From Chloroflexota bacterium (lineage in GTDB: Bacteria > Chloroflexota > Dehalococcoidia > Lucifugimonadales > UBA3495): 64,000 nucleotides of DNA. The stretch is taken from contig JAPPGG010000027.1 in NCBI GenBank assembly GCA_028875055.1, forward strand, positions 1-64,000. The letters run 5' to 3'. The position numbers and the translations under genes are program-made. Every line of letters begins with the position of its first letter. Positions within the stretch are counted from its first letter, which is position 1. Shown here piece after piece: positions 21,139 through 41,904 of the stretch. The notes below the pieces were generated by a model, which was not told the DNA's origin, did not search any database, and saw only the letters and a program-made list of their open reading frames with translations.

Positions 21139-21637
21139 GAGAGGGCCGGGCAAGACCTGTAAGCCGGGTTCTGTATCCTGGCGGCCATACGCCGACAGGA
21201 CGGTGACCATCTATCTAGCCCCCTGCGATGCGGTCGGGTGGACCGACGCAGGTCCGCGCGCGAGAAGCGAGCGGGACGACGTTGCCGTCGGGGTCGAGCA
21301 GCCAACCCGGGGACGAGCCGGACGCCCATAGTCCCCCTATTCGGCCTTGCTCCAGGTGGGGTTTAGCCGTCGCTGTGTCGCCACAAGCGACCGGACGCTC
21401 TTACCGTCCGATTTCAACCTTACCTCCGGCACTCAGGCAGTCCATTGCGGGGAATGGGCTGCGCGGGTTCATGGCGGAGGCGGTATGTTTCTGTGCCACT
21501 TTCCGTCCCCTGGCGCAGTGGTCAAACTGCATCAGAAGCCTGGGAGTTACCCAGCACCCTGTCCGGTGGAGCCCGGACTTTCCTCCCCGGCGAGAATAAC
21601 TCGCCGCGGCGGCCACCCGGACTTGCCCAGCCTCTCC
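21139..21637 (-). ncRNA. rnpB: RNase P RNA, bacterial type A-like
   Basis: On the minus strand the conserved blocks appear in order: GAGGAAAGTCCGGGCTCC, ACAGGGTGCTGGGTAAC, GGTAAGAGCGTCCGG, AAACCCCACCTGGAGCAAG, GGCCGAATAGG, AGATAGATGGTCACC and ACAGAACCCGGCTTACAG. The ends GGAGAGGCTGGGCAAG and CTTGCCCGGCCCTCTC pair to form P1 and set the boundaries to within a few bases. At about 499 nt it is longer than most bacterial RNase P RNAs, with extra GC-rich sequence between the third and fourth blocks. It is the catalytic subunit of tRNA 5' maturation. A zinc-ribbon coiled-coil gene is encoded just upstream. Confidence 0.93.
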
Positions 21638-39796: not shown

Positions 39797-40819
39797 CTAT
39801 CCGATTACCACCTGCTCGTCGAGGAGGATGCCGCCCTCGAGGTATGCGATGGTAATGGGGTCGCGCTGGAGGGCGGCCTGGACGGTCTCGATGGGCATTG
39901 ACCGGGGAGTGCCGGGAACAACCACGCGACGGACGGCGCTGCGGTGAACGATCCGGCCCTCGGCCGCGCTGGTCTGGGACAGGTCGCGGCCGCCGGACAT
40001 ATTCAGGCCCACTTCCACCTGGATGTCCCGGGTGTCCTGCGCATCTTCGAGGGGCAGGAGGCTGGTCAAGGTGGTGGCAGTGGAAGCGGCCCAGCCGGCG
40101 TGGGCGGAGGGGAAGGGCGGGGGAATCAGGCCCGGAGAGCTGTGACCGGCCAGCACCGTCCACCGGCTGTGGTGGGTCAGGTTTCGGGTGCTTATGTAAA
40201 CCTTGGCCTCGCCTTCGTGTTCCATGACCCCGTCCGGGTTGTATTCCCTGGTGTCCAGCAGGTAGCTGCCGTGGACGGTACCCGGCTGGATTACAGGCAG
40301 GGTCCCTTCCAAGTCCGGCAGGTTGCCGCGGGACGCCGGGATGGCGGTTGTCTCGCCGGAGCGCCACTGGACTTCGTCCTCAATCTGCATGGAGCCCTTG
40401 GTAAGGGCCTGGGCCACGGGGCAGTAACGAGAGGCCCGCTGCAGCCGGACGCGCTGGCCTTCGGTCAGGTCGCCCTTCAGGGTGACCAGTTCGCGCACTC
40501 CAAAGCCAATGGAGCCGGCGCGCTCCAGGGGTTCCAGTTCGAAGTCAACCTCAATGTCTTCCAGGGGAATGCCGCCGCGGTAGGCCACGCCTACCACCGT
40601 AACCACCGTTCAAGCAGCCCAGGCGGCCACCGACAGGTACTGGGCCGGCGGGCCGGCCAGGTCGGTTTTCAGGTTGGGGATGCCAGTGACGAAGGGCCAG
40701 GGACCGCGGGTGTGGTCGCCCGCTCCAATGAGGGTCAGGACGGTGTCGGCGCCCACCGGCCTCGATACTATGTTCCTGGGGGTTTCCAGGTTGACGGGAG
40801 GTGCATTCGGCTGAGTCAT
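39797..40819 (-). CDS. Putative selenocysteine-containing OsmC-like protein, tandem domains
   Basis: 340 residues read from ATG 40819 (AAGGAGCGCGTT upstream) through an in-frame UGA at 40612-40610 to the stop at 39797. The UGA is codon 70, in LSVAAWAA-U-TVVTVVGVAYRGG. This is where OsmC/Ohr proteins have the peroxidatic Cys at the start of the central helix. The resolving-type Cys133 is in SRYCPVAQAL. Frame, family pattern and hairpin after the UGA all point to selenocysteine, not a broken gene. Residues about 140-340 look like a second OsmC-like copy in which the same positions are Ser246 (GWAASTATTL) and Asp (RDPITIAYLEGG), so probably non-catalytic. It would reduce organic peroxides. SelA, SelB and tRNA-Sec are not in the window. 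Confidence 0.8.
40577..40597 (-). promoter_or_regulatory. Candidate bacterial SECIS hairpin
   Basis: Directly downstream of the UGA on the minus strand, GTGGTAGGC (40597-40589) pairs with GCCTACCGC (40585-40577), including one wobble, around a GTG loop (40588-40586). The loop begins with G and lies 21 bases after the UGA. That spacing and loop match bacterial SECIS elements, which recruit SelB. It is embedded in the coding sequence. Confidence 0.75.
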
Positions 40820-41099
40820 AACGCGCTCCTTGGCGCCGCAGGCATTCTTTCCGACACTCCAGGGACCAGGAAATGCCTCGGTGGTTCGAATTACCCGCAC
40901 TATAAGCAAGAGCGCGGTAGGGGTCAACCTGAAGAAAGTGAGGACGGCTGGGTGTGAGCGCCCCAATTGCCAGTCCAGCAGGTACTTGTTCAACTACGGT
41001 GAAATTGTCCCATCGGAGGCGAAGGAATCGAGGAAATAGCGAGAGAAGCAAAGCGCGGCGTATAATGGAGATGATAAAAGTTGGGACCGGAAGAGATAA

Positions 41100-41745: not shown

Positions 41746-41841
41746 GCTCGTTCCACCGGACCCTTTCGCTTCAGAAAAAATCCGGGCATTGGGCATCCTT
41801 CTTTAGGAACGCCTTGTGCAATATCGCGACTGGAAGCGGGA

Positions 41842-41870
41842 CGGCCCGCCGGACATTCACCGGCGGGCCG
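41842..41870. terminator. Hairpin between convergent genes
   Basis: CGGCCCGCCGG and its exact complement CCGGCGGGCCG surround a 7-base loop. It lies between the PIN toxin (plus) and the monooxygenase (minus), and probably terminates one or both. Confidence 0.7.
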
Positions 41871-41904
41871 CTTACATTCGAATCAGTTGATTGCTGTCCT
41901 GGCC

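Follow-up and report, generated by a model that had tools for sequence, protein, structure and literature searches.

A gene with an in-frame UGA at codon 70, located on a 64,000-nucleotide stretch of DNA (hereafter the window) from a Chloroflexota bacterium, is best explained overall as encoding a selenoprotein with two OsmC/Ohr-type domains in tandem, a reading to which we assign a probability of roughly 0.9. The reading frame, the conserved UGA codon, the conserved hairpin behind it, the selenocysteine (Sec) machinery and the probable domain duplication were all computed directly. From this sequence evidence, the presence of Sec in the protein itself appears almost certain. The source genome (3.75 Mb, estimated to be 98% complete) was compared with 59 relatives, and the alignment used throughout consists of 13 rows, namely the gene of the window and 12 full-length orthologues that are 51–99% identical.

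Gene and domain architecture

The frame contains exactly one internal stop, the TGA at codon 70, which lies between the residues AAWAA and TVV (Table 1). The initial annotation had described a good ribosome-binding site, an ATG start and this single UGA, and had placed the UGA where OsmC/Ohr proteins have their peroxidatic Cys; the former were found as described, including the TAG end, and the latter was borne out by alignment to PDB chains. The two redox residues, Sec70 and Cys133, are approximately 60 residues apart and both are invariant, which agrees with the earlier claim of a conserved second Cys 63 residues after the UGA. Codon 133 is the sole Cys codon of the gene. The initial annotation was also correct in calling the protein OsmC-like before and after the UGA, but it had overlooked the apparent second, degenerate OsmC domain in the C-terminal half.

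Table 1. Features of the tandem OsmC-like gene and its surroundings, in window coordinates.
Feature	Position	Strand	Evidence
Tandem OsmC-like gene, predicted selenoprotein of 340 aa; ATG start 40819, TAG stop 39797-39799	39797..40819	minus	Read-through frame, Pfam match, 13 orthologues in relatives
Ribosome-binding site AAGGAG	40826..40831	minus	Read from sequence
UGA codon 70, peroxidatic position, predicted to be read as Sec	40610..40612	minus	TGA invariant in 13 aligned rows and in L108
N-terminal OsmC domain core, residues 58-146, with Sec70 and invariant Cys133	40382..40648	minus	PF02566, E 4.4e-9; orthologue alignment
Cys133 codon TGC, likely resolving Cys	40421..40423	minus	Invariant in 13 aligned rows
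C-terminal degenerate OsmC-like domain, residues 170-340, with Ser246 and Asp320 at the two Cys positions	39800..40312	minus	Profile-profile match, E 1.3e-5; fold match, Z up to 10.8
SECIS-like hairpin, 9 bp here (8 bp conserved, 40578-40596), GUG loop 40586-40588	40577..40597	minus	Folding, alignment, frozen synonymous sites

The Pfam search of the read-through protein matched the N-terminal domain only (37.1 bits, cut-off 27.5), and this OsmC domain is also supported by a PDB sequence search. When the C-terminal half was scanned against Pfam by itself, no OsmC match was returned. An hhalign comparison aligned its profile with that of the N-terminal half and paired WAA-S-TATT with WAA-U-TVVT and RDPI with YCPV, and the orthologue alignment shows Ser246 and Asp320 to be invariant where the redox residues of the second domain would be. 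The nearest entries to a low-confidence structural model of the C-terminal half (pLDDT 56) were approximately 30 Ohr/OsmC structures with Z scores starting at 7.7, and the first unrelated row scored 7.6. The full-length model is of moderate confidence (mean pLDDT 71), and one OsmC chain aligns with residues ~9–340 of it, drawing on elements of both halves; two domains interlocked in the manner of an Ohr dimer would be expected to give this pattern. The C-terminal half appears to be a degenerate OsmC domain whose Cys positions are taken by Ser and Asp, and we infer as a last step that the whole chain is a fused pseudo-dimer in which a single selenium site is still live. In the first domain, Sec70 at the N-terminal end of the central helix would be the peroxidatic residue and Cys133 the resolving residue; the second domain, with both redox residues lost, would probably be the structural half of the internal pseudo-dimer.

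Proteins of the OsmC/Ohr family act as thiol peroxidases on organic hydroperoxides, and Sec70 together with the invariant Cys133 would fit a selenium version of this chemistry. The selenolate of Sec70 would attack an organic or lipid hydroperoxide and be converted to a selenenic acid, which Cys133 would resolve as a selenenylsulfide that a cellular dithiol, for example a dihydrolipoyl protein, would reduce. We consider peroxidase activity with this type of substrate and reductant probable. Possible too, although clearly less favoured, is a selenoprotein without peroxidase activity, in which the OsmC-like selenol acts on another electrophile or metabolite or serves as a redox sensor. The OsmC superfamily is broad in function, and the catalytic Glu of Ohr proteins, which is located in the loop before the central helix, aligns with a variable residue 60 (Gln, Ala or Glu) in the orthologue and PDB alignments, so that the classical Arg-Glu peroxidase network is unconfirmed. 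Against this, the combination of Sec at the peroxidatic position and an invariant second Cys is the arrangement expected of a two-thiol peroxidase.

No conserved gene neighbourhood pointing to a pathway was found beyond the genus and genome G007, and because the neighbourhood is kept only there, it provides no operon argument for the function. The adjacent amidase and luciferase-like genes were dropped as candidate partners on the same grounds.

Hairpin and selenocysteine machinery

A 9-bp hairpin with a GTG loop had initially been placed 21 bases after the UGA. Both stem and loop are real; the distance of 21 nt is incorrect for the start of the stem and correct for the loop. The loop of bacterial SECIS elements is given as lying 16–37 nt after the UGA (PMC10778597), and the 21-nt spacing, together with a small apical loop containing G, agrees with the criteria for such elements (PMC10778597, PMC1088965). 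In RNAalifold, all 13 aligned rows fold into a single 8-bp helix capped by a GUG loop. The pairing is kept in 104/104 cells of the alignment and the loop is constant; when the partner strand is slid by 1–3 columns, pairing falls to 14–63%. Codons 75–81 have a synonymous identity of 82%, compared with 43% expected from the rest of the gene, which is the highest value among 272 windows of the gene and lies approximately 4 standard deviations up. Covariation is limited because the stem hardly varies: it consists of one double change, a compensatory A-U to G-C replacement at one stem pair in orthologue L035 at the cost of a Tyr to His substitution, and was equalled in 73 of 500 control shuffles. 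The synonymous constraint is better evidence for the hairpin than the covariation.

Folding of single 60-nt RNA segments gave competing structures in a few orthologues (L033, L037), which were resolved by the alignment-level fold. A search of the region against Rfam gave no match, which says little on bacterial SECIS elements. Just one other of the 170 TGA codons in the window with an open frame on both sides is followed by a stronger hairpin in the SECIS range, and a hairpin by chance is ruled out because the structure is conserved in the orthologues. The same hairpin type occurs in other UGA genes of the genome.

Two further RNA features of the window were observed. The stronger hairpin, at the TGA at 41885 (~41835–41875, minus strand), has a GC-rich stem of 12 bp; situated immediately behind the luciferase-like monooxygenase gene, it probably acts as a terminator. 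A class A RNase P RNA is located at 21144–21628 on the minus strand (222.6 bits).

The Sec machinery is complete. Profile searches of the genome detected SelA (542 bits, cut-off 268), SelB (345 bits, cut-off 242) and SelD (385 bits, cut-off 125), and a tRNA-Sec with a UCA anticodon was identified by ARAGORN among other methods. The initial annotation had tied the Sec reading to the occurrence of selB, selC and selD in a near-complete genome, and selA, selB, selD and selC are all present. The selD gene (G000:C49:5814-6737, minus strand) has an in-frame UGA of its own in the active-site motif SHCAG-U-AA, which is the known Sec form of SelD. SelB and tRNA-Sec would decode the UGA at codon 70 as Sec, guided by the hairpin just downstream.

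Reassignment of UGA exists in some bacteria, and an ordinary or modified tRNA might insert Cys or Trp in place of Sec at codon 70, through a local or global reassignment. We regard this as very improbable, since the tRNA-Trp of the genome has a CCA anticodon and the adjacent amidase gene terminates at TGA, showing that UGA still works as a stop. Plain reassignment would also need neither a full Sec system nor a SECIS-like hairpin with frozen synonymous sites.

Conservation of the UGA codon

Each of the 12 full-length orthologues detected in the 59 relatives contains exactly one TGA. Within the family, the gene, counting that of the window, is present in 14 of 50 genomes from six genera, and 14 of 14 copies have one TGA at the same codon; these include L108, an orthologue additional to the aligned ones. 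A Cys version of the tandem gene was not found among the 50 genomes of the family. The initial annotation had noted that close relatives with a plain Cys codon and no conserved hairpin would weaken the Sec reading, and the relatives keep both the UGA and the hairpin. Among 393 genomes sampled from the class and 400 from the phylum, the only OsmC relatives to appear are single-domain proteins. The closest of the single-domain relatives, L051 and L052, have UGA at the same site, and more distant single-domain OsmC proteins (for example L109–L113) have Cys at the Sec position, as do the PDB chains. Two C-terminal fragments in different frames (L044 and L045 on G031:C154) are apparently a decayed second tandem OsmC copy and are uninformative on codon 70.

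A regulatory role of the UGA as a true stop, with translation ending at codon 70 or restarting at the GTG at 40606 under control of the hairpin, is conceivable in that this GTG is in frame one codon after the UGA and would give a 269-residue product. Such a product would lack the N-terminal strands of the OsmC domain and the catalytic residue, and conservation is alike on both sides of the UGA, with GPW, PP and YL invariant ahead of it. The same hairpin type in other UGA genes of this genome also argues against a regulatory stop, which we consider highly unlikely. Even less credible is a pseudogene arising from a nonsense mutation or sequencing error: TGA is one base change from TGT or TGC, but the reading is refuted because the same TGA is conserved in every orthologue from separately assembled genomes of six genera, the frame downstream is under strong amino-acid constraint and the Sec machinery is present. 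The earlier ranking of a nonsense mutation as the less likely alternative is thereby vindicated. Incorporation of Sec at codon 70, as originally proposed, is now strongly supported by the machinery, the conserved UGA and the conserved hairpin, from which we infer the incorporation itself.

Relation to known OsmC-like selenoproteins

OsmC-like selenoproteins with the motif UxxT were found in Sargasso Sea data in 2005 (PMC1088965) and again in GOS data in 2008 (PMC2398784), and the family is listed in a 2026 review (PMC13188914). The tandem protein is therefore of a known kind. As far as the available parts of these publications describe the family, it resembles the published members in its PF02566/COG1765 domain, in a UGA-encoded Sec at the redox-active position, in its occurrence in marine bacteria and in a SECIS-like hairpin of bacterial type whose small apical loop contains G. 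It differs in having U-T-V-V-T (UxxxT) where the motif given there is UxxT. The tandem form is absent from the family descriptions in those parts, which sets it apart by description only, as it may equal a published sequence. Compared with Ohr proteins (for example 2bjo and 6mjn), it has the same fold, a central helix with the peroxidatic residue and a second Cys approximately 60 residues on, but it has Sec for Cys, two domains in one chain as opposed to a homodimer, and no conservation at the position of the catalytic Glu. The single-domain UGA-containing OsmC proteins of related Dehalococcoidia (L051, L052 and L040–L042) have UGA at the same active-site position, and L051 and L052 also have the motifs GPWS and LAAUTV in common with the tandem protein; they consist of one domain of ~150–200 aa.

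Two other OsmC-family genes with an in-frame UGA were observed in the source genome. The first (L003, G000:C14:23311-23757, minus strand), with counterparts L071–L090, encodes a plain Cys at the first site and has the UGA in WKRR-U-PLYG; in L003 and L072 it apparently sits at the position of the second (resolving) Cys. This gene type is present in 30 of the 59 relatives with one TGA each, and the 20 relatives inspected have the UGA at one shared site, followed at equal spacing by a hairpin (GGTCGCC-GTG-GCGACC, ~21 nt after the UGA), with compensatory changes in L078 and L080. It is possibly an undescribed selenoprotein group. The second (L002, G000:C68:116182-116685, plus strand), with counterparts L116–L125, is a third OsmC-like gene, with the UGA in SILF-U-EMTQLERYAQM. 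Its UGA is conserved in the ten genomes inspected, and a hairpin (GAGCG-GTA-CGCTC) lies ~20 nt downstream.

No tandem OsmC selenoprotein was found in the literature searched, which had most subscription papers outside its reach, and within the same scope no description was found of the UxxxT spacing or of a genome with Sec in three of its OsmC-family proteins. This silence is weak evidence of novelty for the three features. The tandem architecture may be new; Sec in OsmC-like proteins has been known since 2005, so that no new principle is involved. On balance, we lean towards a new OsmC selenoprotein subfamily, a fused asymmetric pseudo-dimer with one Sec site and one dead site, from a SAR202-type Dehalococcoidia family that has placed Sec in three different members of the OsmC family, in one case at the second (resolving) Cys.

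With this gene, a mostly uncultured marine lineage gains a well-supported selenoprotein whose architecture is unusual. Standard annotation would stop the protein at codon 70 or begin it past the UGA. If our reading is true, the pseudo-dimer with its single Sec would make it possible to test directly whether the paired active sites of Ohr/OsmC dimers function independently of each other, and also to test why these bacteria favour selenium.
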